Of a DNA stretch of 64,000 bases, positions 49,772-64,000 are shown piece by piece. Within the stretch, counting starts at the first letter, position 1. Each line of letters opens with the position of its first letter. The notes below the pieces were generated by a model. That model was not told where the DNA came from. It saw only the letters and a list, made by a program, of their open reading frames with translations, and did no database searches. The DNA is from an uncultured bacterium (GTDB taxonomy: Bacteria; Pseudomonadota; Alphaproteobacteria; Rhodospirillales; Rhodospirillaceae), in contig CAISTS010000009.1 of NCBI GenBank assembly GCA_903888485.1, positions 1 through 64,000 on the forward strand, in the 5' to 3' direction. Made by a program: the position numbers and the translations under genes.

Positions 49772-50865
49772 GGCACCCGATCAGCCACGGCGTCGGCAAT
49801 GGCGATGCTGGAGGTCAATCCGGGGGATTCTATGCCGTAAAGGGCAATGAATCCGTTAACGCCGGTTTCCGCCGGGCCCTGGATGACAAAGTCCTTGGAC
49901 TTATCCCCAGGTCCTTGAATTTTCGGCCGAATTCCGCTGTAGCCGGGACGGAGCGCGCCGTCGGGCAGGTCCGGCCAGTATTTACGGATGGCATCGTAGA
50001 ACGAAGCCTCGCGGCTCTCATCGACGTGGTAGTCGATCTTGTCGGTCCATTCGAGGTCGGGGCCGAAGCGGCCTTGGCCCGCGAGGTCGAGAGTGTAGTG
50101 CAGGCCCAAGCTGGCATGGCCGGGCAGGGGATAGATCAGCCGCGTGAACGGCGGCTTGCCGGAGAGGTAGAAGTAGTTGCCCTTGGCATAGTGCTGCGGC
50201 GGCACCGAGCCCGGCTTGATGCCGGTGATGGTGCGGCTCAAGGGTTGCGCGCCGAGGCCGGCGCAGTTCACCACCGTGCGCGCCTTCAGGCTCATGCCCG
50301 CGTCACCGCCGACGTCGAGCACCACGCCGTCGTCCTCGCCGCGCCCGCCGGTGACCGGGCTGTTGTAGGCGATGGCCGCGCCGTTGGCCTCGGCGTCGCC
50401 CAACAGGGCGAGCATATAGGCGTGGCTATCAACGATACCCGTGAGCGGCGAATGCAGCGCCGCGGCGCATTCGAGGTTAGGCTCGATACGCTTCACGTCG
50501 GCGCGGCTCATCCAGGTCATGTAGACGCCGCTGTTGTTGGCGTGGGCCTGGAGGTTCTTAAGCCCCTCAAGCTGGCTGTCGTCGGTGGCGTAGACCAGCT
50601 TGGTCGTGCGCTTGTAGGTGACACCATAGGCGTCGCAGAAGGCGTAAAGCTTGTCGCGCCCTTCGATGCACAGGCGCTCTTTCAGGCTGCCATGGGTGTA
50701 GAAGATGCCGGCGTGGATGACCTCGCTGTTGCGCGAGCTGGTGGCCGTGCCGAAGGCGTCTTCGGATTCCAGGATCAGGACTTCGCGCCCCTTACGTGCA
50801 AGGGCTCTGGCTGTGGCGAGCCCGACGACCCCGGCGCCGATCACGACACAATCCGCAGTCTCCAT
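49768..50865 (-). CDS. FAD-dependent oxidoreductase, L-2-hydroxyglutarate oxidase (LhgO)-like
   Basis: The 365-residue product from ATG 50865 begins METADCVVIGAGVVGLATARALARKG, an FAD-binding GxGxxG. SRNSEVIHAGIFYTHGSLKERLCIEG is typical of the LhgO/L2HGDH group, and the C-terminus has GYSGIRPKIQGP and GIESPGLTSS. It likely oxidises L-2-hydroxyglutarate or a similar 2-hydroxy acid. GGGGGA five bases before the ATG supports this start; the frame extends upstream only as shadow. The stop overlaps the GH114-like gene by ATGA. Confidence 0.9.
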   Translation of the reverse strand: METADCVVIGAGVVGLATARALARKGREVLILESEDAFGTATSSRNSEVIHAGIFYTHGSLKERLCIEGRDKLYAFCDAYGVTYKRTTKLVYATDDSQLEGLKNLQAHANNSGVYMTWMSRADVKRIEPNLECAAALHSPLTGIVDSHAYMLALLGDAEANGAAIAYNSPVTGGRGEDDGVVLDVGGDAGMSLKARTVVNCAGLGAQPLSRTITGIKPGSVPPQHYAKGNYFYLSGKPPFTRLIYPLPGHASLGLHYTLDLAGQGRFGPDLEWTDKIDYHVDESREASFYDAIRKYWPDLPDGALRPGYSGIRPKIQGPGDKSKDFVIQGPAETGVNGFIALYGIESPGLTSSIAIADAVADRVP

Positions 50866-50936
50866 AAGTCCCCCAAGGCTTTGATCCACCAAGAGTGTGC
50901 GGGCGCCCGATGGTCTGGTCAAGCAGCGGCCCCACA

Positions 50937-50942
50937 TATAAT
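50937..50942 (+). promoter_or_regulatory. -10 box immediately before mipZ
   Basis: TATAAT (50937-50942) ends nine bases before ATG 50952. A transcript from here would begin at about 50949, so mipZ could be leaderless. No good -35 was seen 17 bases upstream. Confidence 0.4.
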
Positions 50943-50951
50943 GTCGCGGCC

Positions 50952-51788
50952 ATGACGTCCTTAGGTCCGCAAAAGTCGCCGCGTGTCGTTGTCTTCGGCA
51001 ATGAGAAGGGCGGGACGGGTAAATCCACGCTCGCCATGCACCTGGCTGTGGCCTTGCTTAACCGCGGGCTGAAGGTCGCGACGATCGACCTCGATGCGCG
51101 CCAGGGCACGATCTCGCGCTACGTGGGCAACCGCCGCCTCTACGCCGAGCGCACGGGCCAGCCGGTGCCGATGCCCGAGCACATTGCTCTGGATATGTCG
51201 CCGCATCAAATCATCGAAGCCGATCTTGAGAACGCGCTCCGGCATGTCGCCCACTGTTCAGCGGTGATCATCGACACGCCCGGACACGATAGCGCGCTGT
51301 CGCAAGTGGGGCACACCTATGCCGACGTATTGGTCACGCCCATCAACGACAGCCTCATCGATCTCGACGTTCTCGCCCATGTCGATCCCATCAAGCAAAC
51401 CATTCATAGGCCCAGTCACTATTCCGAGCGCGTCTGGAAGGCCAAGCAGGCGCGCGCCAAACGTGACGGCGGTTCCATGGATTGGGTGGTGGTGCGCAAC
51501 CGCTTGGGCCAGCTGGACGCGCGCAACAAGAAGCTGATGGCGCGGCTGGTGGGCGAGCTTTCGAAGCGCATCGGGTTTCGCGTTGCCGAAGGCATCCACG
51601 AGCGCGTGATCTACCGCGAACTGTTCCTGGATGGATTGACGGCCGAGGACCTGGCGATGCTTGCGGATCGGCGCGAAGTCGCTATGTCACACGTAGCGGC
51701 GCGCCAAGAGATCCGCAACCTGATGCGCGCGCTTGGACTACCGGACCAATTGGAAACGGGATTCATCAGCTCGGCCCATGGCGGATAA
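50952..51788 (+). CDS. mipZ: MipZ-type division-plane positioning ATPase (ParA/MinD family)
   Basis: MipZ forms a gradient from the cell poles and blocks FtsZ assembly, placing the division site at mid-cell in many alphaproteobacteria. The 278-residue product from ATG 50952 has a deviant Walker A (NEKGGTGKST, Lys19 and Lys24), IDLDARQGTISRYVGNR and IIDTPGHDSALSQ. It has no clear ribosome binding site. Its last 11 bases overlap the next gene. Confidence 0.93.
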   Translation: MTSLGPQKSPRVVVFGNEKGGTGKSTLAMHLAVALLNRGLKVATIDLDARQGTISRYVGNRRLYAERTGQPVPMPEHIALDMSPHQIIEADLENALRHVAHCSAVIIDTPGHDSALSQVGHTYADVLVTPINDSLIDLDVLAHVDPIKQTIHRPSHYSERVWKAKQARAKRDGGSMDWVVVRNRLGQLDARNKKLMARLVGELSKRIGFRVAEGIHERVIYRELFLDGLTAEDLAMLADRREVAMSHVAARQEIRNLMRALGLPDQLETGFISSAHGG

Positions 51789-52485
51789 GACGCCGACCAC
51801 ACGACCCACGAGTTCCAACGTCGCAGAATTTCTGAAAAAGGCGGCGCAGGTTCAGGTGCGCGCGCCGGACGGCAAGAACGGCCGGCTGATTTTCGCCATG
51901 GACGCCACCGCCAGCCGCGGCCCGACCTGGGCGCAGGCGATGGGCATTCAGACCGAGATGTTCCAGGAAGCAGCCTCCGTCGGCGGGCTCGACGTGCAGC
52001 TGGCCTACTATCGCGGCATGATGGATTTCGGCGCGAGCCCGTGGCTCGGCAACGCGGAGCGCATGATTACGTTAATGCGCGGCGTGTCCGTCATGGCGGG
52101 CAACACGCAGATCGAACGGCTGCTCCGTCACGCCGCTGAGGAAGCCAAGCGCGGCAAAGTGAACGCCATGGTGTTCATCGGCGACGCCGTTGAAGAGTCG
52201 GCGGATCAGATTGCCGCCGCTGCTGGCCAGCTCGCCCTGCGCGGTGTGCCGGTTTTCATTTTTCACGAAGGCGGCATGGAGCCGGCGGGCGCGGTGTTCC
52301 GTCAGATCGCCCAGATCACCAAGGGTGCATATTGCAGCTTCGATGCCAGCAGCGCCCAGCAGCTACGCGATTTGCTGAAGGCCGTGGCGATCTTCGCTGC
52401 CGGAGGGCGCAAGGCGCTCGAAAACTACAGTAAAAAAGCCGGCGGCGTTGTACTCAAGCTCACGCAGCAGGTGAGCAAACCATGA
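51778..52485 (+). CDS. VWA (von Willebrand factor A)-domain protein
   Basis: The 235-residue product has an A-domain from about residue 35: LIFAMDATASRGPTWAQA supplies the MIDAS-like DxTxS, and NAMVFIGDAVEES supplies a second acidic site. There is no signal peptide, so it is cytoplasmic. It overlaps mipZ by 11 bases and the DnaJ-like gene by four, so all three are translated together. Its job with MipZ is not known. Confidence 0.85.
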   Translation: MADKTPTTRPTSSNVAEFLKKAAQVQVRAPDGKNGRLIFAMDATASRGPTWAQAMGIQTEMFQEAASVGGLDVQLAYYRGMMDFGASPWLGNAERMITLMRGVSVMAGNTQIERLLRHAAEEAKRGKVNAMVFIGDAVEESADQIAAAAGQLALRGVPVFIFHEGGMEPAGAVFRQIAQITKGAYCSFDASSAQQLRDLLKAVAIFAAGGRKALENYSKKAGGVVLKLTQQVSKP

Positions 52486-53222
52486 CAGCGCTGCTCGCGG
52501 GACTCTTGCTGCTGATCGCCGCAGTCTCGGTGCTGCGCTGGTTCGCCCATGCCGATGTGAAAAGCGCGCGCAAGGCCATCAACTGGGGCGGCCTTGGCCT
52601 CATCGCGCTGGTCATCCTGGTCCTTGCCGCCACCGGGCGGATTGGCGCGGCCATCGCCGGCCTTGTCGCCATGTCGGCGTGGATCATGCGCATCCTCAGC
52701 ATGGTGCATATGGGCCGGCAATTTCACGGCATGTTCCGCTCATTCCGGTTCGGGCAAGGCAACAACAATGCCTGGGCAGGGCAGACTTCGGCGGTCGATA
52801 GCGCTTTTCTTCAGATGAGCCTCGATCTTGCCAGCGGCGACATGGACGGCGAGGTCAAGCAGGGCACCTATCGCGGCCGACGGCTCAAAGGCATGGACAA
52901 GGCCGCGTTGCTTTCGTTGCTCCAGGAAGTGCAGTCCGATCCGGATTCCGTCGGCTTGCTCGAAGCCTATCTTGACCGCGCGCACCCCGACTGGCGTGAC
53001 GGCGAGGCTTCATCCGGCGCCGCGCCGCCGCCACAGCAATCGGCTATGACTGTCGAGGAGGCGCACCGCGTCCTCGGTGTGAAGGAGGGCGCGGACGAGG
53101 CGGACATCAAAGCCGCCTACCGGCGCCTCATGGGCCAGCTCCACCCCGACAAGGGCGGCAGCGACTACCTCGCCGCCAAGGTCAACCAGGCCAAGGATTT
53201 GTTGCTCAAAAAGCGCGTCTGA
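52482..53222 (+). CDS. Membrane-anchored DnaJ-domain protein
   Basis: The 246-residue product has two N-terminal membrane segments (ALLAGLLLLIAAVSVLRWF and WGGLGLIALVILVLAATG, with a third stretch near residue 55) and a C-terminal J-domain with the HPD motif (KAAYRRLMGQLHPDKGG). It probably recruits DnaK to the membrane. It is the last gene of the mipZ-VWA-DnaJ operon. Confidence 0.9.
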   Translation: MTALLAGLLLLIAAVSVLRWFAHADVKSARKAINWGGLGLIALVILVLAATGRIGAAIAGLVAMSAWIMRILSMVHMGRQFHGMFRSFRFGQGNNNAWAGQTSAVDSAFLQMSLDLASGDMDGEVKQGTYRGRRLKGMDKAALLSLLQEVQSDPDSVGLLEAYLDRAHPDWRDGEASSGAAPPPQQSAMTVEEAHRVLGVKEGADEADIKAAYRRLMGQLHPDKGGSDYLAAKVNQAKDLLLKKRV

Positions 53223-53320
53223 GCCCGGTTGCAAGGCCGGTCGCGGCGTGGCACAACAGCGGGCCCGCGCCCGGTGGGTGCGATAACACACTGAATTATA
53301 TAGATTTCTGAGGGACACCC

Positions 53321-54193
53321 ATGGTTCAACGCGTGCGTAAGGCGGTGCTGCCGGTCGCTGGCCTTGGCACCCGTTTCCTGCCCGCGACCAAGGTGATCCC
53401 CAAGGAGATGATCCCGGTCATCGACAAGCCTGTGGTCCAGTACGCCATCGAAGAGGCGCGCGCCGCCGGCATCGAGGAGTTCATCTTCGTCTCCGCCTAC
53501 GGCAAAGAGTCCATCACTCAGCATTTCTCGCCAGCCCCGGGCCTTGAGCGCCAGCTCGAGGAGAAGGGCAAGACCGCTGAACTGGCCCTCGTGCGCGGTG
53601 CGACCCTGTCCACCATTCACACCGTCATCCAGGAGAACCCGCTCGGTCTCGGCCATGCGGTGTGGTGCGCCTGGCCGCTGGTCGGCGACGAGCCCTTCGC
53701 GGTGATCCTGCCGGACGACATGGTGCTCTCGCAGACCCCATGCCTCAAGCAGCTCATCGAAGCCCATGCGAAAGTCGGCGGCCACGTGGTCGCCGTCGAA
53801 GATGTTCCCCGCGAGCAGACAAACCGCTACGGCATCCTCGATGTGCTCAGCGACGACGGTAAGCTTGCCAAAGCCAAAGGCCTCGTCGAGAAACCAGCGC
53901 CGGAAACCGCGCCTTCGACGCTCGCGATTATCGGCCGCTACGTGCTCGATCCCATCGTCTTCGGCGAACTCGACAAGAAGACCAAAGGGGCGGGCGGTGA
54001 GATTCAGCTCACCGACGGCCTTAACCGGACGATCGACAGGGTGCCTTTCCATGGGCTGCGCTTCGAAGGCCGGCGGTACGATTGCGGCACCCATGTCGGT
54101 TTTGTCGAAGCGAACCTTGCTTTCGGTCTGGCGCGTCCCGAGATGGCTGCGAAACTGCGCCCCCTTGTCAAAAACCTGCTTGAGATGAAGTAA
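53321..54193 (+). CDS. galU: UTP-glucose-1-phosphate uridylyltransferase
   Basis: GalU makes UDP-glucose. The 290-residue product has the nucleotide-binding LPVAGLGTRFLPATKVIPKEMIPVIDKPVVQY, GLGHAVWCAWPLVGDEPFAVILPDDM, EKPAPETAPSTLAIIGRYVL and the late DCGTHVGFVEANLAFGL. Length and order are canonical. GAGGG precedes the ATG. One base after its stop, ugd begins, so UDP-glucose flows to UDP-glucuronate. Confidence 0.97.
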   Translation: MVQRVRKAVLPVAGLGTRFLPATKVIPKEMIPVIDKPVVQYAIEEARAAGIEEFIFVSAYGKESITQHFSPAPGLERQLEEKGKTAELALVRGATLSTIHTVIQENPLGLGHAVWCAWPLVGDEPFAVILPDDMVLSQTPCLKQLIEAHAKVGGHVVAVEDVPREQTNRYGILDVLSDDGKLAKAKGLVEKPAPETAPSTLAIIGRYVLDPIVFGELDKKTKGAGGEIQLTDGLNRTIDRVPFHGLRFEGRRYDCGTHVGFVEANLAFGLARPEMAAKLRPLVKNLLEMK

Positions 54194-54194
54194 C

Positions 54195-55502
54195 ATGCGT
54201 ATCGGAGTGATGGGCAGCGGCTACGTCGGACTGGTGTCCGGAGCCTGCTTTTCGGAATTCGGCATCGATGTGGTCGTCTACGACCCTGATGCGAGCAAGA
54301 TCGAGCGCTTGCAGAAAGGCAAAATTCCAATCTTCGAGCCGGGCCTCGAAGACCTGGTGAAGAACAATATGGAAGCCGGTCGGCTCACCTTCACCACCAA
54401 TCCCAAGCAGGCCATCGAAGGCGCCGAAGCGGTGTTCATTGCCGTCGGCACGCCCAGCCGGCGCGGCGACGGCCACGCCGATCTCTCCTATGTCTATGGC
54501 GCGGCCATGGACATCGCCGGGCACCTGAAAAACTACGCCGTCGTCGTCACCAAATCGACGGTACCTGTCGGAACAGGCCGCGAGGTCGAGCGCATCATTC
54601 GCGCCGCGCGCACGGACCTCGAGTTCGACGTTGCTTCGAACCCGGAGTTCCTGCGCGAAGGCTCGGCCATCAACGATTTCATGCGCCCCGACCGCGTCGT
54701 CATCGGCACCGAGAGCGAACGCGCGCAAAAGGTCATGCGCCAGCTCTACCGCGTGCTGTACCTGATCGAGACGCCGATCCTGTTCACCTCGCTCGAAACC
54801 TCCGAGCTCATCAAATATGCGGCCAATACGTTCCTCGCCGCTAAGATCACCTTCATCAACGAGATCGCCGATCTGTGCGAAAAAGTCGGCGCCGACGTGC
54901 ACGATGTGGCGCGCGGCATCGGCCTCGACGGACGTATCGGAAAGAAGTTCTTGCATCCGGGTCCGGGTTACGGCGGCTCGTGCTTCCCCAAGGACACGCT
55001 GGCGCTGGTCAAGACCGCGCAGGATTTCGGCGCGCCCTTGCGCATCATCGAGACCGTGGTCGACGTCAACAACAAGCGCAAACGCGCCATGGCCGACAAG
55101 ATCGCGGCCGCTTGCGGCGGCGACTTGAAGGGCAAGACGCTCGCGGTGCTCGGTCTGACGTTCAAACCCAACACCGACGACATGCGCGACGCGCCGAGCC
55201 TGGTCATCGTGCCGGCCCTGCAGCAGGCGGGCGCGACCATCCGCGCCTTCGACCCCGAGGGCGCACATGAAGCGCGGAACCTATTGCCCGGCGTGACGTT
55301 CTGTTCCGACGCCTACGACGCCATGGCAGGCGCCGATGCGGTCGTCCTCCTCACCGAGTGGAATCAGTTCCGGAACCTGGATCTCAAGCGCATGAAATCG
55401 CAGCTGAAAGCCCCGGTGATGATCGATCTGCGCAACGTCTATGCGCCCGCCGACATGAAGGCCGCCGGCTTCCGCTATACCTGCGTCGGACGTCCGTCCT
55501 AA
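54195..55502 (+). CDS. ugd: UDP-glucose 6-dehydrogenase
   Basis: This enzyme oxidises UDP-glucose to UDP-glucuronate with NAD+. The 435-residue product starts with MRIGVMGSGYVGLVSGACFSEFG, has SNPEFLREGSAINDFM, and the catalytic GPGYGGSCFPKD with Cys263. The NAD-binding second domain has LGLTFKPNTDDMRDAPS. It is typical in length. It sits between galU and the phosphohexomutase, which implies a polysaccharide precursor operon. Confidence 0.97.
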   Translation: MRIGVMGSGYVGLVSGACFSEFGIDVVVYDPDASKIERLQKGKIPIFEPGLEDLVKNNMEAGRLTFTTNPKQAIEGAEAVFIAVGTPSRRGDGHADLSYVYGAAMDIAGHLKNYAVVVTKSTVPVGTGREVERIIRAARTDLEFDVASNPEFLREGSAINDFMRPDRVVIGTESERAQKVMRQLYRVLYLIETPILFTSLETSELIKYAANTFLAAKITFINEIADLCEKVGADVHDVARGIGLDGRIGKKFLHPGPGYGGSCFPKDTLALVKTAQDFGAPLRIIETVVDVNNKRKRAMADKIAAACGGDLKGKTLAVLGLTFKPNTDDMRDAPSLVIVPALQQAGATIRAFDPEGAHEARNLLPGVTFCSDAYDAMAGADAVVLLTEWNQFRNLDLKRMKSQLKAPVMIDLRNVYAPADMKAAGFRYTCVGRPS

Positions 55503-55528
55503 ACGCGCCCGCTTCCCTTAGGATACCC

Positions 55529-56917
55529 ATGCACAAATTCCATGCTTCCATCCTGCGCGAATACGACATCCGCGGCATCGTTGGCGAGACGCTGTTTCCG
55601 GCGGATGCAAAAGCGGTGGGCCGTACTTTCGGTACCGCTATCCGCCGTAGCGGCGGGTGCCGCGTTTGTGTCGGTTACGACGGACGCCTGAGCTCACCCG
55701 AGATGGAAGCAGCCCTGATCGAGGGCCTTGTATCCGCCGGTATTGGTGTTGTCCGCGTCGGACGCGGGCCGACGCCGATGCTGTATTTCGCCACCTTCGA
55801 CGACAAGGCCGACGGCGGCATCATGGTGACGGGCTCGCACAATCCGCCCACGCACAACGGCTTCAAGATGATGATCGGCAAGAAGCCCTTCTTCGGCGCC
55901 GACATCAAGAAGCTGGGCGTCATGGCCGAAGGCGGCGACGTCGATACGGGCAAGGGGGCGGTCAGCGATGATCCCGCGCTCGGGCGCTATCTCGACCGTG
56001 TCATGGCCGACTTCCAAGGCACGCGCGCGCTGACGGCCGTGTGGGATCCGGGCAACGGGGCAGGGGCCGAAGTGGTCACGCAACTCGTCAAGTGTCTGCC
56101 GGGCAAGCACATCGTGCTCAACGGCGAGATCGACGGCACGTTCCCGGCCCATCATCCCGACCCGACGGTGCCCGCGAACCTCGTACAGCTCATCGATGAG
56201 GTCAAAAAGCAGAAGGCCGATGTTGGTTTTGCTTTTGATGGTGATGCCGACCGTATTGGCGTGGTTGACGGCAAGGGCCGCATCCTCTGGGGCGATCAGA
56301 TCATGCAGATCCTGGCCGAGGACGTGCTGAAGCACATGCCCGGCGCTCCGATCATCGCCGACGTCAAAGCCAGCCAAGCGCTGTTCGACGAAGTCGCGCG
56401 CATGGGCGGTCAGCCCATCGTCTGGAAAACCGGCCATTCATTGATCAAGAACAAGATGGCCGAGACCAAAGCGCCGCTCGCCGGCGAGATGAGCGGACAT
56501 ATCTTCTTCGCCGACCGCTACTACGGTTTCGACGACGCCATCTATACCGCCGTGCGCTTCCTTTCGATCATGGCGTTGGATGCGAACTTCGATCTCGTGC
56601 GCCGCTACGACAAGATGCCGGTGCTGATCAATACTCCGGAGCTGCGCTTCCCGTGCGCCGACGAACGCAAGTTCGCCGTGATCGACGAGGTCAAGGTCCG
56701 CCTGGCGAAGTCGGGCGCCAAGGTCTCGGACATCGACGGCGTGCGGGTCACGAGCAAGGGCGGCTGGTGGCTGCTGCGCGCCTCCAACACACAAGCTGTG
56801 CTTGTGGCGCGGGCCGAAGCCGATACTGAAGCCAATCTCGAAGGCCTCAAGACCGAGCTGGCGGCGCAATTGCGCGCGAGCGGCCTGGATTTGCCGACCG
56901 AGAGCGCCCCCCACTAA
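55529..56917 (+). CDS. Phosphomannomutase/phosphoglucomutase
   Basis: The enzyme interconverts hexose 6- and 1-phosphates, feeding GalU. The 462-residue product from ATG 55529 has the phosphoserine loop VTGSHNPPTHNGFKM, the metal site FAFDGDADRIGVVD, and the sugar loop GEMSGHIFF. The C-terminal SNTQAVLVARAEA is the phosphate-binding end. AGGA sits five bases before the ATG. The frame runs upstream into ugd as shadow. Confidence 0.95.
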   Translation: MHKFHASILREYDIRGIVGETLFPADAKAVGRTFGTAIRRSGGCRVCVGYDGRLSSPEMEAALIEGLVSAGIGVVRVGRGPTPMLYFATFDDKADGGIMVTGSHNPPTHNGFKMMIGKKPFFGADIKKLGVMAEGGDVDTGKGAVSDDPALGRYLDRVMADFQGTRALTAVWDPGNGAGAEVVTQLVKCLPGKHIVLNGEIDGTFPAHHPDPTVPANLVQLIDEVKKQKADVGFAFDGDADRIGVVDGKGRILWGDQIMQILAEDVLKHMPGAPIIADVKASQALFDEVARMGGQPIVWKTGHSLIKNKMAETKAPLAGEMSGHIFFADRYYGFDDAIYTAVRFLSIMALDANFDLVRRYDKMPVLINTPELRFPCADERKFAVIDEVKVRLAKSGAKVSDIDGVRVTSKGGWWLLRASNTQAVLVARAEADTEANLEGLKTELAAQLRASGLDLPTESAPH

Positions 56918-56959
56918 ATCTTCGCGAAGTTCACGATCCGGAACACATAAACGACCCAT

Positions 56960-57018
56960 TGCTTCAGAGGCGGCGCGTTCCTCTGTAGGATCGCGCCGAT
57001 TTCGCGTTGGGGGTTGTT
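56960..57018 (+). promoter_or_regulatory. Promoter-like leader, copy 1 (before the truncated receptor)
   Basis: TGCTTCA (56960-56966), then 19 bases, then TAGGAT (56986-56991), matching the spacing of copies 2 and 3. An inverted repeat CAGAGG/CCTCTG (56965-56970, 56980-56985) lies between the boxes. TTGGGGG is the ribosome binding site five bases before GTG 57019. Confidence 0.5.
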
Positions 57019-57192
57019 GTGCGTTTCACGAAGTTTGTTCTGAGTACCGTTGCTGGCGTGGCGCTGTGCGCGCCGGCCTGGGCGCAGCGCGCCGACGAGA
57101 ACGTCGTTACGGCGGCGGAAGATGCTTTCGGCACGCGCGTCGGCAACGACAACATCGGCCTTTATGAATCGCGCAGCGCACGCGGTTTCTAG
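57019..57192 (+). pseudogene. Truncated N-terminus of a TonB-dependent receptor paralog
   Basis: The 57-codon frame has a signal peptide (VLSTVAGVALCAPAWAQ) and then QRADENVVTAAEDAFGTRVG and GLYESRSARGF, matching the start of the two receptors that follow. A TAG stops it at 57190, where those continue DPQQAGN. The sequence after the stop is not recognisably receptor-like. It is most simply the remnant of a deleted third copy; a small secreted peptide is an alternative. The start is GTG 57019. Confidence 0.8.
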
Positions 57193-57244
57193 TCCGGACA
57201 TCCTCAAGCGCTCGAATTTGTCGATGGCAGACCCCAGAAACGGG

Positions 57245-57304
57245 GGCTTTTACCCGCGTCCCGGAGCCACTAGTATCCGCCCCCTTCGGGATGTGGGGTT
57301 TGTA
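57245..57304 (+). promoter_or_regulatory. Promoter-like leader, copy 2
   Basis: GGCTTTT (57245-57251), 19 bases, TAGTAT (57271-57276), then CTTCGGGAT (57284-57292) and GGGG before the TTG start. The same elements recur before the next receptor at the same spacings. GGCT (57245-57248) and AGCC (57265-57268) form an inverted repeat. Confidence 0.6.
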
Positions 57305-59242
57305 TTGACCTGGAAGCAGTACGTTTTGGGCACCGCCGCCTGCGCGGTGGTCTTCACAGTCAGTGGTGTTGCGCGGGCCCAGCGGGCAGACGAGAACGCG
57401 GTCACCGCGGCCGAAGACGCCTTCGGTACCCGCGTCGGGACTGAGGGCGTCGGTCTCTACGACATGCGGAGCGCCCGCGGGTTCGATCCGCAGCAAGCCG
57501 GCAACATTCGCGTCGAAGGCCTGTACATGGACGTGCAGGGGCTCTTCGGCAATCGCCTGACCCGGGCCACCACCATGCGCATCGGCCTGACCGCGCAGTC
57601 CTATCCGTTCCCGGCGCCTACCGGCATCGCCGACATCACCATGCATCAGCCCGCCGATCACACCGTGACCAGCGCGCAGGTGCAGTACTCCAAGCCGCGC
57701 GGCATGAGCTCGCTGATCCTCGACGTCTCGACGCCGCTGATCGGCGACAAGCTCGGTATGGTCGTCGGCGCCAACTGCTTCCACAGCGGCGGCGAACAGG
57801 CGACCGGTGGCGGCATCCTGACCATCGCGGGGCTCTTGCGTTGGCGTCCGAACGACGTCACGGAAGTTATCCCGTTTGTCTTCCACAATCAGACGTTCAC
57901 GTCCGAAGCGGCACCCGCCATATTCACGGCCGGCAACTTCCTGCCACCCGAAGTCGACCGCAATGTATTCTATGGCCAGAAATGGGCCGTGCGCCGCAAC
58001 GACGAGCGCAACCTGGGTGTGATCACGCGCTCCAGCCCGTGGCCCAACTGGCGTATTCAGGTCGGCTTGTTCCATTCGCAGCAGGAGCGCTCGAAAAACC
58101 ACGCGGTGTTCCTGCGCAACACCACGCCGGGCGGGCTCGCGACCCTCGACATCCTCAAGTACCCGCCGCACTACTCGGGTTCCTATTCGGGCGAGGCGCG
58201 GGTTTCGGGTGTGTTCACCGACGGCAGTTTCCGTCACACGGTGCATATCGCCACGCGCGGGCGCAGCACGCGCCGCCTGTTCGGCGGCGGCCAGACCCTG
58301 AGTTACGGTCCAGTGCAGGTGGGCGTCTACCAGCCGATGGCTGAGCGTGCCTATACCCTTGGCGTGCGGGACAAAGACTTGGTGCGGCAGGTAACGCCTG
58401 GCATCACCTATGTCGGGCAGTGGGCAAATGTCGGCGAGTTCAGCCTCGGCCTGCAGAAGAGTTTCTACCGCCGCAAATTCGGCAAGGAGAATGCCGGCCC
58501 GCAGACGACGGAGAGCCAGCCTTGGCTCTACAACGGCACACTGGCTTACTACGTCACGCCTGCACTGGCGCTCTATGGCGGCTATACCCGCGGCATTGAA
58601 GAGTTCGGCACGGCGCCCGACAACGCCCTAAACGGCGGCCAGCCCTTGCCGGCGGCGCTCACCGAGCAGATCGACGCGGGCGTCCGCTATCGCATCATTC
58701 CCGGCGTCAATTTTATCGCCGGTGTATTCGAAGTGAGCAAACCCTATTTCGACCGCAACACGGCTAACCTGTTCACCGACGTCGGCAGCTTGCGTCACCG
58801 TGGCATCGAAGTGTCGCTGTCGGGGAAGGTGGTGCAGAACGTCACCGTCATCGCCGGCGCGGTTTTCCTGCAGGCGCGGGTTTCGGGCCTTACAGTCGAT
58901 CAAGGGATCATCGGCCGTGTGCCTCCGGGCACGCCGCCGCGGCTGATGCGCGTCAACGTCCAGTACGACGTGCCGGCGCTCAAGGGGTTCTCATTGGACG
59001 GGCAGGTGGAAGTCGTGGGCGGCCATGTTGCCAATCGCCTGAATACTTTGCGCGTGGGCTCGGCGGCGACGCTGTCGCTGGGAACGCGCTATTCCTTCAA
59101 CATCGGCCAGACGCGGGCCAACATTCGCCTGCAGATGCAGAACGTTACCAACGCCTATGATTGGGTGGTGGATGGAGCCTCGGGACGCCTGTCGCCCAGC
59201 GCGCCGCGCAACTACCTCGCGCGCCTCAGCGCTGATTTCTGA
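57305..59242 (+). CDS. TonB-dependent receptor, tandem copy 2
   Basis: The 645-residue product starts at TTG 57305 (MTWKQYVLG), with a signal peptide ending near VARAQ. The plug starts QRADENAVTAAEDAFGTRVG, then DPQQAGNIRVEGLYMDVQ. Barrel segments include SQPWLYNGTLAYY, YRIIPGVNFIAGVFEVSKPYF and the C-terminal YLARLSADF (terminal Phe). No clear TonB box was seen. A normal start codon for the same frame is absent nearby: the frame runs upstream through the stub copy, but only TTG fits the ribosome binding site. The ligand is unknown. Confidence 0.88.
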   Translation: MTWKQYVLGTAACAVVFTVSGVARAQRADENAVTAAEDAFGTRVGTEGVGLYDMRSARGFDPQQAGNIRVEGLYMDVQGLFGNRLTRATTMRIGLTAQSYPFPAPTGIADITMHQPADHTVTSAQVQYSKPRGMSSLILDVSTPLIGDKLGMVVGANCFHSGGEQATGGGILTIAGLLRWRPNDVTEVIPFVFHNQTFTSEAAPAIFTAGNFLPPEVDRNVFYGQKWAVRRNDERNLGVITRSSPWPNWRIQVGLFHSQQERSKNHAVFLRNTTPGGLATLDILKYPPHYSGSYSGEARVSGVFTDGSFRHTVHIATRGRSTRRLFGGGQTLSYGPVQVGVYQPMAERAYTLGVRDKDLVRQVTPGITYVGQWANVGEFSLGLQKSFYRRKFGKENAGPQTTESQPWLYNGTLAYYVTPALALYGGYTRGIEEFGTAPDNALNGGQPLPAALTEQIDAGVRYRIIPGVNFIAGVFEVSKPYFDRNTANLFTDVGSLRHRGIEVSLSGKVVQNVTVIAGAVFLQARVSGLTVDQGIIGRVPPGTPPRLMRVNVQYDVPALKGFSLDGQVEVVGGHVANRLNTLRVGSAATLSLGTRYSFNIGQTRANIRLQMQNVTNAYDWVVDGASGRLSPSAPRNYLARLSADF

Positions 59243-59284
59243 GCCGCTGAAAGTCAGTTCAAATGCCCGATAGCGGCAAAGCAA

Positions 59285-59343
59285 GGCTTTTGAAGCCAAG
59301 TCGAAGCCATTAGTATGCCCGGCTTCGGGATTAGGGGATCAAT
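59285..59343 (+). promoter_or_regulatory. Promoter-like leader, copy 3
   Basis: GGCTTTT (59285-59291), 19 bases, TAGTAT (59311-59316), CTTCGGGAT (59323-59331), then AGGGG before TTG 59344. The spacing matches copy 2 to within one base. GGCT/AGCC inverted repeat at 59285-59288 and 59305-59308. Confidence 0.6.
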
Positions 59344-61278
59344 TTGACCTGGAAGCAGTATGTTTTGGGCGCCGCCTGCGCGGTTGCCCTCACGCAGGGT
59401 GACCTTGCGTACGCGCAGCGCGCCGACGAGAACGCTGTGACTTCGGCGGAAGATGCCTTCGGCACCCGCGTCGGCAACGAAGGCGTCGGCCTTTACGACA
59501 TGCGCAGCGCGCGCGGCTTCGATCCACAGCAGGCGGGCAATATGCGCGTCGAGGGGCTGTATATCGACATCCAGGGCATGTTCGGCATGCGCCTGACCAA
59601 GAGCTCAACGATCCGCATCGGCCTGTCGGCGCAATCCTATCCGTTCCCGGCGCCCACGGGCATCGTCGATTTTGCCATCCAGCTTCCGGCAGATCGGACC
59701 GTGATCAGCCCGCAAGTGACCCTCAACGCACCCATCGGCATGAACTCGGTGGTCGTGGATGTGTCGACGCCGCTGATTGGCGACAAGCTCGGCATGGTCG
59801 GAGGGTTCAATGCCTTCAAGAGCACCAACGAGGCCGGTACCAAGAGCAAGATGCTGACCACGGCCGCGCTGTTCCGCTTTCGCCCGTCGGACAACATCGA
59901 GATCATCCCCTTCATCTTCGACAATCGCGCTTTTAACAACCAGATCGCGCCGTCGGTCTTCCTCGCGGGCGCGGCGCTCCCGCTCAAGTACGACCGCGAC
60001 CTTTTCTATGGGCAGGAGTGGGCAACACGCAAATTGCGCGAGCAAAACCTCGGCCTGATCGTGCGCAGTGCGCTGGGGGTGAACTGGCGGCTGCAGACCG
60101 GACTGTTCCACACCGAGCAATCGCGCGCGCGCAATCACGTCGTTTTCTTCCGCAATACCCAAGTCGACGGCAGCGCGAATCTCGACATTCTGCGCTACCC
60201 GCGCCACTACCACGGGTCCTATTCAGGTGAGATCCGGGCCTCGCGCGTTTTCACCGACGGCAAGTTCCGCCACACAGTGCACTTCGGCGTGCGCGGCCGC
60301 GACGTGGTGCACCGCTTTGGTGGCGGGCAGACCCTCAGCTTTGGTCTGGCCAGGGTGGCTGTCTACCGCGCCATCGCCGAGCCGACGTACACGTTCGGCG
60401 TACGCGATGAAGATCTTGTGAAGCAAGTGATGCCGGGCGCGACTTACGTCGGTCAGTGGGCCGGCGTGGGTGAGCTCAGTTTCGGCTTGCAAAAAAGCTT
60501 CTACCACCGCGACTTCGGGAAAGAGGGCGGCGCCAGAGCCACGACCAAGAGCCAGCCCTGGCTCTACAACGGCACGCTCGCGCTCTATGCCACCGCCGAT
60601 CTCGCGTTTTATGCCGGCTATACGCGCGGCCTCGAGGAATTCGGCACCGCGCCGGACAACGTCGTCAACGCCGGCGAGCCGTTGCCCGCCAAGGTGACCA
60701 AGCAGATCGACGGCGGTCTGCGTTATCGCATCATCCCAGGCGTCAATTTCGTGGCGGGCGTGTTCGAGGTGAGCAAGCCTTATTTCGACCGCAGCCCGGC
60801 CAATATCTTCACCGACGCTGGCAGCTTGCGCCACCGCGGCATCGAAATTTCGCTAGCCGGTAAAGTCGTACCGCACGTGACGGTGGTCGCGGGTGCGGTG
60901 CTATTGCAAGCGCGCGTCTCCGGCCCGTCTGTTGACCAGAGGCTGATCGGGCGCATCCCGCCCGGCACGCCGCCGACGCTCTACCGCGCCAGCGTTCAGT
61001 ACGATTTCGCATCGGTCCGGGGACTGTCGGTGGACGTCACCGGGGAGATCAACGGCTCCCACTATGCCAACCGGCTCAATACCCTGCGCGTGCCGTCCAC
61101 CGCGCAATTTGGTCTGGGGTCGCGTTATTCGTTCAATGTCGGCGCGACCCGGGCCACGCTTCGGGCGCAGGTCCAGAACATCACCAACAGCTATGACTGG
61201 CAGGTGGACGGTGCTTCGGGACGCATCTACCCGACGCAACCACGCCGCTACACGCTGCGGCTCAGTGCCGATTTCTAA
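59344..61278 (+). CDS. TonB-dependent receptor, tandem copy 3
   Basis: The 644-residue product starts at TTG 59344 (MTWKQYVLG). It matches copy 2 along its length: QRADENAVTSAEDAFGTRVG, DPQQAGNMRVEGLYID, LFYGQEWATR, SQPWLYNGTLALY, GTAPDNVVNAGEPLP and the TLRLSADF end. The signal peptide ends about GDLAYAQ. The tight resemblance and shared leader show a tandem duplication. The barrel loops differ, so the ligands could differ. Confidence 0.88.
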   Translation: MTWKQYVLGAACAVALTQGDLAYAQRADENAVTSAEDAFGTRVGNEGVGLYDMRSARGFDPQQAGNMRVEGLYIDIQGMFGMRLTKSSTIRIGLSAQSYPFPAPTGIVDFAIQLPADRTVISPQVTLNAPIGMNSVVVDVSTPLIGDKLGMVGGFNAFKSTNEAGTKSKMLTTAALFRFRPSDNIEIIPFIFDNRAFNNQIAPSVFLAGAALPLKYDRDLFYGQEWATRKLREQNLGLIVRSALGVNWRLQTGLFHTEQSRARNHVVFFRNTQVDGSANLDILRYPRHYHGSYSGEIRASRVFTDGKFRHTVHFGVRGRDVVHRFGGGQTLSFGLARVAVYRAIAEPTYTFGVRDEDLVKQVMPGATYVGQWAGVGELSFGLQKSFYHRDFGKEGGARATTKSQPWLYNGTLALYATADLAFYAGYTRGLEEFGTAPDNVVNAGEPLPAKVTKQIDGGLRYRIIPGVNFVAGVFEVSKPYFDRSPANIFTDAGSLRHRGIEISLAGKVVPHVTVVAGAVLLQARVSGPSVDQRLIGRIPPGTPPTLYRASVQYDFASVRGLSVDVTGEINGSHYANRLNTLRVPSTAQFGLGSRYSFNVGATRATLRAQVQNITNSYDWQVDGASGRIYPTQPRRYTLRLSADF

Positions 61279-61284
61279 GCAGGA

Positions 61285-62796
61285 TTAGTTGGAGGCGACC
61301 TGAGCGCTATCGGGCCGTATGGCCTGGCAGGCGCCGGCTTTGGTGGCTTTGGGCACCAGACTGCAGGCGCGCACGAGGTCGGCGTCGTCGCCGAGGCCCA
61401 TGACACGGGCGCGGTACACCCAACGGCCCTTGATCTTCACCGGCATGACGACGGCGGTGGCGCCGGCGAACGTCGATTTCAAGCTCTTCGTGGCGGTGCC
61501 GGCCTGGGTTTCGGCGCGCTCGCGCGTGGAGTAAGCGCCGATCTGGATGCCGGTGGCGTCTTCAAAGGCTTCCATCGCGCTCGCGTTAACGGCGGGCTTG
61601 GGTGCGCTCGCCTTCGGCGGGGCGGGGAGCGCGGCCACGCGCGGCTGCGAGATCGCGGGCAGGGCAGTAGTGGTGACGCCCGAACGTGTCACGGGGGTGA
61701 AGGGCGCATCGCGGTCGCCCTGTTCGGTCACGTCGGGTGTTCCTTGGGCGAGAGCAATCTGCTGGCCGATATTGTCGGCGAAACGGTCGCTTTGCGTCGG
61801 CGTGCGGCCGGCAATGGCCATGTCGGGCTGGCCGGAGAGGACCGCGAAACCCTGGTCCATGAGTTCGGCGAGTTTACGGTCACGCGCGTTGCCCGTGGCG
61901 CCGCCGAAAAGCACGCCGATGACGCGGTAGCCGTTTCGCGTGGCCGAGCCGGCGAGATTGTACCCCGACGCAGCGGTGAAGCCGGTCTTGATGCCGTCGG
62001 CGCCTTCATAGAACTCGAGCAGGCGGTTATGGGTGCGGATCGTCTGCCCCTGATACATGAACTCCATCTTGCTGAAGTTCGCGTAGTGTTGCGGGTAGTC
62101 CTTGATCAACCGGCTAGCCAAGATGGACATATCGCGCACCGACGAAAGCTGGCCCGGATTCGGCAACCCGGAGGCGTTGGCGAAGGTGGTGTTGGCCATG
62201 CCGAGGGCGCGGGCACGGGCCGTCATCTTGGCGGCAAACTCACTTTCCGAGCCGCCCAGGAACTCGGCTGTGGCAACGGCAACGTCGTTGGCGGATTTGG
62301 TGATGAGCGCACCGATGGCCTGCTCGACCGTCAGTTTCGACTTGCGCGTCACACCTAGCTTCGACGGCGCAGCGCCCATGGCGCGGGGCGAGACCGGGAT
62401 GCGGCTGTCCATCTGGATCTCACCGCGCTCCAAGGCTTCGAACAGCATGTAGAGCGTCATCATCTTGGTGAGGGACGCCGGATAAGCCCGCGTGTCGGCG
62501 TTCACTTCCGAAAGCACCTGACCCGTGGCGGCGTCGACGACGATGGCGGCGTAAACCGGCGCGTTGTAGCGCGCACGCGGGGCTTTCTTGGCGGCGACCT
62601 TTTTCTTGGCCGGCGCCTTTTTGGCGGCGGTCTTCTTAACGGGAGCTTTGGCTTTCGCCGGAGCGGCGGCTGGCGGGGTTGCGGAGGCAGCGGCAGCGCT
62701 GGAGGCGGGTGCTGTGGCTTCAGGCGCCGCGCTCACCAGAGCGGGCATCGCGCACAGCAGAGAAATTGCGAACAACCGCACTAGTCCGAAGCGCAT
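61285..62796 (-). CDS. dacA: D-alanyl-D-alanine carboxypeptidase (PBP5/6 family) with SPOR domain
   Basis: The enzyme trims the terminal D-Ala of peptidoglycan stem peptides. The 503-residue product has a signal peptide (FAISLLCAMPALVSA), a Lys/Ala-rich linker (about residues 46-76), the Ser108-x-x-Lys111 motif (SLTKM), Ser168-Ala-Asn170 and Lys270-Thr-Gly. The last 80 residues (GIQIGAYSTRERAETQAGT) are a SPOR domain that binds denuded glycan at septa. The SPOR tail replaces the usual membrane-anchoring helix. Confidence 0.93.
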   Translation of the reverse strand: MRFGLVRLFAISLLCAMPALVSAAPEATAPASSAAAASATPPAAAPAKAKAPVKKTAAKKAPAKKKVAAKKAPRARYNAPVYAAIVVDAATGQVLSEVNADTRAYPASLTKMMTLYMLFEALERGEIQMDSRIPVSPRAMGAAPSKLGVTRKSKLTVEQAIGALITKSANDVAVATAEFLGGSESEFAAKMTARARALGMANTTFANASGLPNPGQLSSVRDMSILASRLIKDYPQHYANFSKMEFMYQGQTIRTHNRLLEFYEGADGIKTGFTAASGYNLAGSATRNGYRVIGVLFGGATGNARDRKLAELMDQGFAVLSGQPDMAIAGRTPTQSDRFADNIGQQIALAQGTPDVTEQGDRDAPFTPVTRSGVTTTALPAISQPRVAALPAPPKASAPKPAVNASAMEAFEDATGIQIGAYSTRERAETQAGTATKSLKSTFAGATAVVMPVKIKGRWVYRARVMGLGDDADLVRACSLVPKATKAGACQAIRPDSAQVASN

Positions 62797-63237
62797 CCCC
62801 GTTCCTACTCTCTCGCACTCAGTTTCTATGCGCCCCGAAACACTCGGGCTGTGGATAACTCGGTCTCAACCCCAAATTCACCGCAAGCTGTACTGTAGGA
62901 CTGGCCGGTTAACCCGGCGTTATGCTCAGAGGATACGTGTCGATCCTCAGGGTGTCTACAATTTCCTTTTCATCCCCTTGAATCACATGGGGAATCGTAA
63001 ATTTTTTCGACACGCGCGCAACAGTTTTGCCAGGCTTTGGCGGTTCCTCCGACTAAAATCCCGTTCAGGTGTTTCCGCGGGGACCGCAACGTGACCACCT
63101 AAGCGGCGTTTTCGCTAACAACAAAACCCGGAAGACTTGCTGCATAGATGAAACAGCCGTCATTAAATTTCGTTCCACCCCTGGCGCGCCAGGATTTTTG
63201 ACACATACTTAAGGCCAGCTTTGGTATTCTAACTCAC
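62797..63237. other. Non-coding gap between dacA and clpS region
   Basis: This 441-base gap lies between two divergent genes. It holds CCTGGCGCGCCAGG (63180-63193), a 14-base palindrome; a GAGGAT/ATCCTC hairpin at about 62930-62960; a TCCCC/GGGGA stem at about 62973-62996 followed by a T-run; and TTGACA (63198-63203) with TATTCT (63225-63230) at a spacing too long for a standard promoter. No gene was recognised. Confidence 0.5.
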
Positions 63238-63354
63238 GTGACACCGCTATCTACAGATATGAGCTTGGCCAGACCCTTATCCCCTTGGATCATGAGCGCT
63301 GTTCCGACCACCCACGAGGCTAGCCGCCCGCCAGCTGGCATGACGCCGGCCCGC

Positions 63355-63687
63355 ATGAATGACGAGCGCAAGGGCAATGGCGACGACGGCCGGACGACCA
63401 CGGGCGTGGTGGTCAAGCCGCGGGCCAAGGTCAAGAAACCCTCGATGTACAAGGTGCTGATGCTCAACGACGACTACACGCCGATGGAATTCGTCGTGCA
63501 CGTCCTAGAGCGCTATTTCCAGAAGAACACCGAGGAGGCCACGCGCATCATGTTGCACGTCCACCAGAAGGGCGTCGGTGTCTGCGGCGTGTTCACCTTC
63601 GAGGTGGCGGAGACCAAGGTCAATCAGACCATGGAGCTGGCGCGCAAGAATCAGCACCCGCTCCAGTGTACGCTTGAGAAGGAATGA
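63355..63687 (+). CDS. clpS: ATP-dependent Clp protease adaptor ClpS
   Basis: ClpS delivers N-end-rule substrates to ClpAP. The core is [66 protein letters not shown], with the family's [13 protein letters not shown] 63355 gives a 110-residue product of normal length. ATGs at 63259, 63292 and 63340 and a GTG at 63238 are in frame, none with a strong ribosome binding site, so the start is uncertain. clpA follows. Confidence 0.93.
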
Positions 63688-63757
63688 GGAAGGAGTTTGG
63701 GGAGAAAGTGGGAGAAGACACTAAAACGGCTCTCTGGTTGAAAAGGATATAACCGCT

Positions 63758-64000
63758 TTGTCAATGTTGTCCCAAAACCTCGAGAAAACTCTCCATCTCG
63801 CCCTGGCCACTGCGGCCGAGCGCCGGCACGAATACGCCACCCTTGAACACCTTTTGATCGCGCTCTGCGATGACAGCGACGCCATCGCCGTCATGCGCGC
63901 ATGCAACGTCGATATCGAGCAGCTGCGCGGTATTGTTCGCCAATTCATCAACGAAGACCTGCGCGACCTGGTGTCGATCGCGAGCGACGATCCAAAGCCC
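63758..64000 (+). CDS. clpA: ATP-dependent Clp protease ATP-binding subunit ClpA, N-terminal part
   Basis: ClpA unfolds substrates for ClpP. The visible residues (SMLSQNLEKTLHLALATAAERRHEYATLEHLLIALCDDSDAIAVM) are the Clp N-domain. The TTG at 63758 aligns with the usual MPSFSQ start; ATG 63764 is the alternative. AAGGA at 63742-63746 lies upstream. The gene runs off the right edge. Confidence 0.93.
   Translation, partial: MSMLSQNLEKTLHLALATAAERRHEYATLEHLLIALCDDSDAIAVMRACNVDIEQLRGIVRQFINEDLRDLVSIASDDPKP

Follow-up and report, generated by a model that had tools for sequence, protein, structure and literature searches.

Do the tandem TonB-receptor-like genes of this locus carry leaders that serve as sites for one shared regulator, or ordinary leaders of the kind that paralogues with local promoters would keep? 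The locus lies within the window, the whole stretch of 64,000 nucleotides that was analysed, on contig C9 of a source genome of 3.49 Mb in 89 contigs (G000, here called the own genome). The gene order is MipZ ATPase, nucleotidyl transferase, UDP-glucose dehydrogenase, phosphomannomutase, receptors, D-Ala-D-Ala carboxypeptidase, and ClpS, and the coordinates of the array are given in Table 1. The presence of MipZ would point to an alphaproteobacterium. A syntenic locus is found in five relatives. In G010, G009, G016, and G014 it consists of UDP-glucose dehydrogenase, phosphomannomutase, and a pair of receptors, and in G008 of phosphomannomutase and a single receptor. Behind the receptors comes the carboxypeptidase in G010, G009, G016, and G008, and the G014 stretch ends in the second receptor.

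Table 1 Features of the receptor array and its neighbours (positions in the window)
Feature	Position	Strand	Details
Phosphoglucomutase/phosphomannomutase (pmm)	55529..56917	+	Left neighbour; likewise left of the array in five relatives
Leader 1	56918..57018	+	TGCTT 56960-56964, TAGGAT 56986-56991, TTCGCG 57001-57006, GGGGG 57009-57013
Copy 1, probable receptor-gene 5' remnant	57019..57192	+	57 codons, GTG start, TAG stop 57190-57192
Leader 2	57193..57304	+	GGCTTTT 57245-57251, TAGTAT 57271-57276, TTCGGG 57285-57290, GGGG 57295-57298
Copy 2, TonB-receptor-like protein	57305..59242	+	645 aa, TTG start set by copy-3 homology
Leader 3	59243..59343	+	GGCTTTT 59285-59291, TAGTAT 59311-59316, TTCGGG 59324-59329, GGGG 59334-59337
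Copy 3, TonB-receptor-like protein	59344..61278	+	644 aa, TTG start
D-Ala-D-Ala carboxypeptidase (Peptidase_S11)	61285..62796	-	Right neighbour; likewise right of the array in four relatives

The earlier note had described three tandem receptor copies. Copies 2 and 3, which are 67% identical, are full genes, but copy 1 is only a stump, consisting of a signal peptide and about 35 more residues before the stop. The best score for the N-terminus of this stump, 170, is with the first of the receptors behind pmm in G009 (a small margin over the runner-up at 166), so copy 1 probably represents the remains of a third receptor gene. Upstream of the start assigned to copy 2 the frame stays open and contains an ATG at 57224; if translation starts there, the boxes of copy 2 lie inside the coding frame. 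The stretch from the upstream stop to the signal peptide of copy 3 contains no in-frame ATG. Elsewhere in the own genome, further members of the family are broken or fragmentary, on contigs C61 (L013/L015), C32 (L008), and C5 (L017), which points to a birth-and-death turnover of the family.

The own genome has 17 matches to these proteins, 14 of them at E <= 1e-60. When 41 genomes were searched, 20 of them gave 148 matches in all, with 0-17 copies in each genome of the genus and 0 or 1 in six other genera of the bacterial family (one genome each). A profile search found matches in 22 of 59 genomes and 7 of 23 genera, among them one other genus with 8, and broken copies with internal stops occur. 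A 26-row tree joins copy 3 to a G014 gene (supports 96/94) and copy 2 to a pair from G010 (86/89), so the duplication that produced copies 2 and 3 is older than these species. Three lines of evidence agree on a TonB-receptor beta-barrel: PF00593 matches, the comparison of a profile with the PDB, and the predicted fold. PF00593 is found in copy 2 (5e-13), is missing from copy 3, and matches seven of the 13 family members examined. The 13-member profile matches FemA (5.6e-37), BauA (1.5e-27), and FhuA (~1e-9), in all cases over C-terminal barrel parts, and a model predicted from 13 sequences (mean pLDDT 65) resembles the same three proteins with Foldseek E values of 5e-25 to 2e-20. The NCBIfam TonB-siderophor model matches copy 2 at 5.5e-21 and copy 3 at 1.3e-26, with scores (75 and 93 bits) that are below its curated cut-off of 223.5. 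The N-terminal region of the family (window 57305-61278, alignment A1) is poorly modelled, residues 1-111 having a pLDDT below 50. None of the 13 members matched Pfam Plug (PF07715) at E <= 0.01; plug-like motifs are visible by eye, and this region may hold a divergent plug. Elsewhere in the own genome, an inverted repeat, AGCTGCGTTACA...TGTAACGCAGCT, was seen by eye in L012, at most 120 bases before the receptor match G000:C45:88820, and this receptor stands behind another TonB receptor (Plug match C45:86848).

All four element types that had been noted, namely the GCTT, TAG(T/G)AT, and TTCG boxes and the G-run, could be located in each of the three leaders. The distance between the first two is as constant as claimed, at 21 bases after (G/T)GCTT in all three, or 19 if the box is read as GGCTTTT. 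The interval from the TAG to the TTCG box, given before as 6-7 bases, is in fact 9, 8, and 7 in copies 1, 2, and 3. Inverted repeats had been reported in every copy, and this applies above chance to copies 1 and 3, where the longest arms are 7 bp (arms as long occur in 7 and 12 of 500 base shuffles, respectively), but not to copy 2, where they are 5 bp and 265 of 500 base shuffles do as well. Two other roles for the leaders were rejected. A riboswitch or another known structured RNA finds no basis, since leaders 1-3 fold no better than shuffles and Rfam has no match at E <= 1 in 50000-64000 (at gathering scores, it finds only a tRNA in the whole window). The GGCTTTT of copy 2 sits after a CCCC...GGGG stem (by eye) and might be part of a weak terminator of the stump. 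A scan for terminators placed GGCTTTT only in a minus-strand stem of 5 bp, at 59285-59297 in leader 3, and the region contains 2 terminator-like sites against 2.2 expected.

The local alignment of leaders 2 and 3 is equalled by none of 1000 dinucleotide shuffles, that of leaders 1 and 2 by 1 of 1000, and that of leaders 1 and 3 by 61 of 1000. By this measure, homology is clear for the first pair, probable for the second, and weakly indicated for the third. Because paralogues share descent, such similarity alone says little, and a comparison with fourfold sites is the better test. Copies 2 and 3 agree at 48% of these sites (120/250). Their leaders match at 36 of 54 positions, with identical runs of 9, 7, and 6, and the two boxes are identical at 13 of 13 bases while the spacer between them is identical at 8 of 19. 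In simulations, three such runs arose with a probability of 0.00045 at a per-site identity of 50%, 0.004 at 55%, 0.015 at 60%, and 0.05 at 65%, values that are too small because the runs were picked after seeing the data and one hand-placed gap gave the alignment a freedom missing from the simulation. As the boxes are better kept than the fourfold sites, they are probably functional in copies 2 and 3, although old gene conversion could also have kept them alike. The suggestion that each leader works therefore survives for these two copies; it does not extend to copy 1, whose leader serves a truncated frame only.

The reading that we favour, and consider moderately probable, is that these are local core promoters with a translation start, ordinary leaders of tandem paralogues kept after an old duplication. 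The locus would belong to a lineage-specific expansion of siderophore-type TonB-receptor-like proteins and form a small array in it, made up of two intact genes and a 5' stump. The GCTT box would be the -35-like and the TAG(T/G)AT box the -10-like element of a core promoter, with transcription starting near the TTCG box and a short 5' UTR following. The G-run would be a Shine-Dalgarno sequence, kept for translation, ahead of the TTG or GTG start, and purifying selection would have kept these elements in copies 2 and 3 since the duplication. A scan for E. coli-type sigma-70 promoters (TTGACA/16-18/TATAAT, at least 9 of 12) found none in 56900-59400, so it is position and constraint that suggest a promoter, and the box spacing of 19-21 bases, which exceeds 16-18, counts against one.

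The G-run can be followed much further than the boxes. We compared 84 family leaders (the window's three and 81 others), which cover part of the 148 matches, the remainder being not fetched or without an N-terminus. A run of at least four Gs at -16..-4 is present in 65 of the 84 (13/15 in the own genome), and in 3-11 of 84 when any of seven other 13-base windows back to -107 is taken. It persists after clustering, in 39/54 leaders at 70% identity, 24/31 at 60%, and 10/15 at 50%. Control genes of the own genome, which are open frames of at least 250 codons and include some wrong frames and a few TonB receptors, have such a run in 36 of 217 cases, and the signal-peptide-like subset in 13 of 44. 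For GGGGG at the position of the ribosome site, the counts are 48/84 in the family versus 11/217 in the controls. The own genome's other TonB receptors were represented by 26 Plug matches, of which 25 had a start found (L114-L138); 15 of these 25 have the G-run and 8 have GGGGG. Thirty of the 45 Plug matches were fetched from G020, a genome of another genus (L140-L169), where GGGG is found in 21/30 receptors and GGGGG in 17/30, compared with 27/206 and 3/206 in controls and 8/42 and 2/42 in signal-peptide-like controls. Start codons distribute differently. The family uses TTG in 36, GTG in 27, and ATG in 21 of its 84 leaders, with no in-frame ATG within the stretch examined in 42; ATG starts 36/44 signal-peptide-like controls, 22/25 other receptors of the own genome, and 27/30 receptors of G020. 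These starts are predictions, and the scripts behind them favour G-runs and GGAGG equally in every set, with side terms that differ a little from set to set. On this basis, the G-run is concentrated in TonB-receptor genes of two genera, and a non-ATG start marks the window's family. Two close relatives, L022 and L023, have 6 and 10 Gs, respectively, before the start, and this difference in length could make expression prone to slippage.

A G-run can act as a Shine-Dalgarno sequence through G-C and G-U pairs. An unusual 16S tail may also play a part; the pattern used for the 16S 3' end had no match in 14 genomes. It is also conceivable that the G-run is both a ribosome site and the pairing site of a small RNA with a C-rich loop that sets TonB-receptor synthesis class-wide, by analogy with sX13 and its 4G motif. 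We regard this as possible but doubtful. The enrichment of GGGGG in the family and in the other TonB receptors of both genomes speaks for it, as do several precedents. The C-rich loops of sX13 target G-rich motifs, which are also possible translational enhancers (PMC3771888). The sX13/4G mRNAs of Xanthomonas resemble the present ones in having G-runs near the translation start, a subset of them at the ribosome site (PMC3771888), and a G-run at or near the translation start is what we found in the family and in other TonB receptors. However, in Xanthomonas 5% of all genes have a 4G motif 8-15 bases before the start, with no link to TonB receptors (PMC3771888), whereas in the present genomes it is the TonB-receptor genes in which G-runs are concentrated, and a cognate RNA was not found. 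In Caulobacter, SisA-D/CrfA (PMC12559287), RusT (PMC11005374), and ChvR (PMC6237742) are described as acting on TonB-receptor mRNAs, and the likeness is one of alphaproteobacterial small RNAs acting on TonB-receptor 5' UTRs (PMC12559287, PMC11005374, PMC6237742). The SisA core given there, UUUCCUCCCU, is C/U-rich. RepG of H. pylori is likewise reported to target a G-repeat (PMC8295292). Among the papers listed in a search of the open-access literature for a link between TonB receptors and a G-run or such a ribosome site, the sX13 paper alone looked relevant, which is no proof of novelty. Against the small RNA, a strong Shine-Dalgarno sequence alone accounts for the G-run, an A directly after the run is about as common in control runs (26/43) as in family leaders (41/65), and Rfam at gathering scores returned only a tRNA from the window.

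In a non-exhaustive genome search for a cognate RNA, one candidate, an alphaR8-like RNA, was examined. The best RF00519 match scored 28-37 bits in each of 12 genomes, always under the gathering score of 41, and 13 of 14 control genomes also matched at E <= 1. Of 20 such alphaR8-like loci fetched, ten, from three genera, have in common an 18-base stretch that does not vary and, behind it, a terminator stem, and most of them show a 5' hairpin by eye; their consensus fold retains only the terminator stem and a stem of three pairs. Three of the remaining ten are cut by contig ends and seven look different. The element in L196 (1501-1576; G000:C29:40229-40304) has the invariant GGTGCGTCCCTGAAACTT, then the terminator, and the same is seen in L191-L195, L197, L199, L202, and L208. 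It resembles Rfam suhB/alphaR8 below the gathering score and is placed directly behind a phoH-like gene in G000 and G020 (by eye). As a reader of the G-run, this RNA is not supported, for its single strand fits TonB-receptor leaders no better than versions with a shuffled core do. With G000 controls as the reference for all three sets, its AUC was 0.42 for the other G000 TonB receptors, 0.55 for the family, and 0.52 for the G020 TonB receptors, and 30, 63, and 80 of 150 shuffled cores, respectively, equalled or beat it. A C5 loop separated receptors with an AUC of 0.79-0.85, a hybrid with the published alphaR8 core with 0.71-0.75, and the 16S tail with 0.58-0.71, and a C-run separates G-run receptors trivially. 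We can only speculate further that GGGGG(A) at the ribosome site is a common post-transcriptional handle of the TonB-receptor mRNAs in this bacterial family, through which a C-rich small RNA or some other trans factor turns down dozens of unrelated receptors together, with the weak TTG/GTG starts making the window's family especially sensitive; this we hold to be unlikely.

If the boxes were instead the site of one shared regulator, as had been suggested, they should recur. In the own genome, exact matches to the two-box motif are confined to two window leaders, with one further place at one mismatch, and at up to two mismatches there are 17 places versus 36 for a reversed control pattern. Across 12 genomes of the genus, GGCTTTT-N17-21-TAGTAT was found only before the two window genes and at one place in G005 (contig C190, L092), which lies on a contig with none of the 11 family matches of that genome and whose nearest downstream frame looks unlike a receptor by eye. 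A looser pattern, (G/T)GCTT-N20-22-TAGNAT, picks out only the window's three among the 84 family leaders. In the other 81, the best two-box match deviates at 3 of 13 bases in 5 leaders, at 4 in 18, at 5 in 40, and at 6 in 18, a shuffle-like distribution. The motif is also absent from all nine leaders of the syntenic locus in the five relatives (best 3-6 mismatches of 13), which is one of the outcomes that the earlier note had named as refuting its proposal. With the palindromes not common to all copies, the operator for one regulator was rejected. Because syntenic orthologues do without the boxes, their constraint is local at best, and as the copies split before these species did, the boxes were either lost in the relatives or gained here. 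A narrower form, in which a single transcription factor has the boxes as its dedicated operator and controls only these two receptors, is quite improbable in our judgement: it would fit the constraint between copies 2 and 3 and the 7-bp inverted repeats of leaders 1 and 3, but the boxes are missing from the 81 other family leaders, the nine syntenic ones included, and the inverted repeat of leader 2 is unremarkable.

Taken singly, GGCTTTT occurs in 3, TAGTAT in 2, and TTCGGG in 8 of the 81 other leaders, counts that 12-23 of 100 shuffles also reach. By contrast with these, TTAGTATG, which is the -10-like string in copy 3, occurs in 2 of the 81 (shuffle mean 0.02, equalled by 0/100), namely L028 and L041, at other distances from the start, a recurrence that would fit a -10-type element used by a few family members. 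The same strings were found in 1, 0, 3, and 0 of 217 control genes, respectively, and since the family counts are above these, the family may have a tendency to such box-like strings. A motif search of the 84 leaders gave a GCCGCTTT-like pattern as the best of 8 bases, with a score of 51; 15 shuffled sets scored 28-43, but leaders of control genes, taken in two sets of 84, reached 62 and 46, so we take this pattern for general composition and rejected it as a family motif.

That the likeness of the leaders is mere common descent or gene conversion with no retained function seems very improbable to us: the copies are tandem paralogues whose first nine codons are identical at 26 of 27 bases in copies 2 and 3, and the run statistic was post hoc, yet the boxes are fully identical where fourfold sites and spacer are less than half identical.

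From a biological perspective, the leader finding is an ordinary one, that of tandem paralogues with local promoters. The more useful by-product is a simple, testable mark, the G-run ribosome site, which is enriched in TonB-receptor genes of two genera of one bacterial family. If it is true that a trans factor reads this G-run, it would help to explain how dozens of receptors are adjusted jointly.
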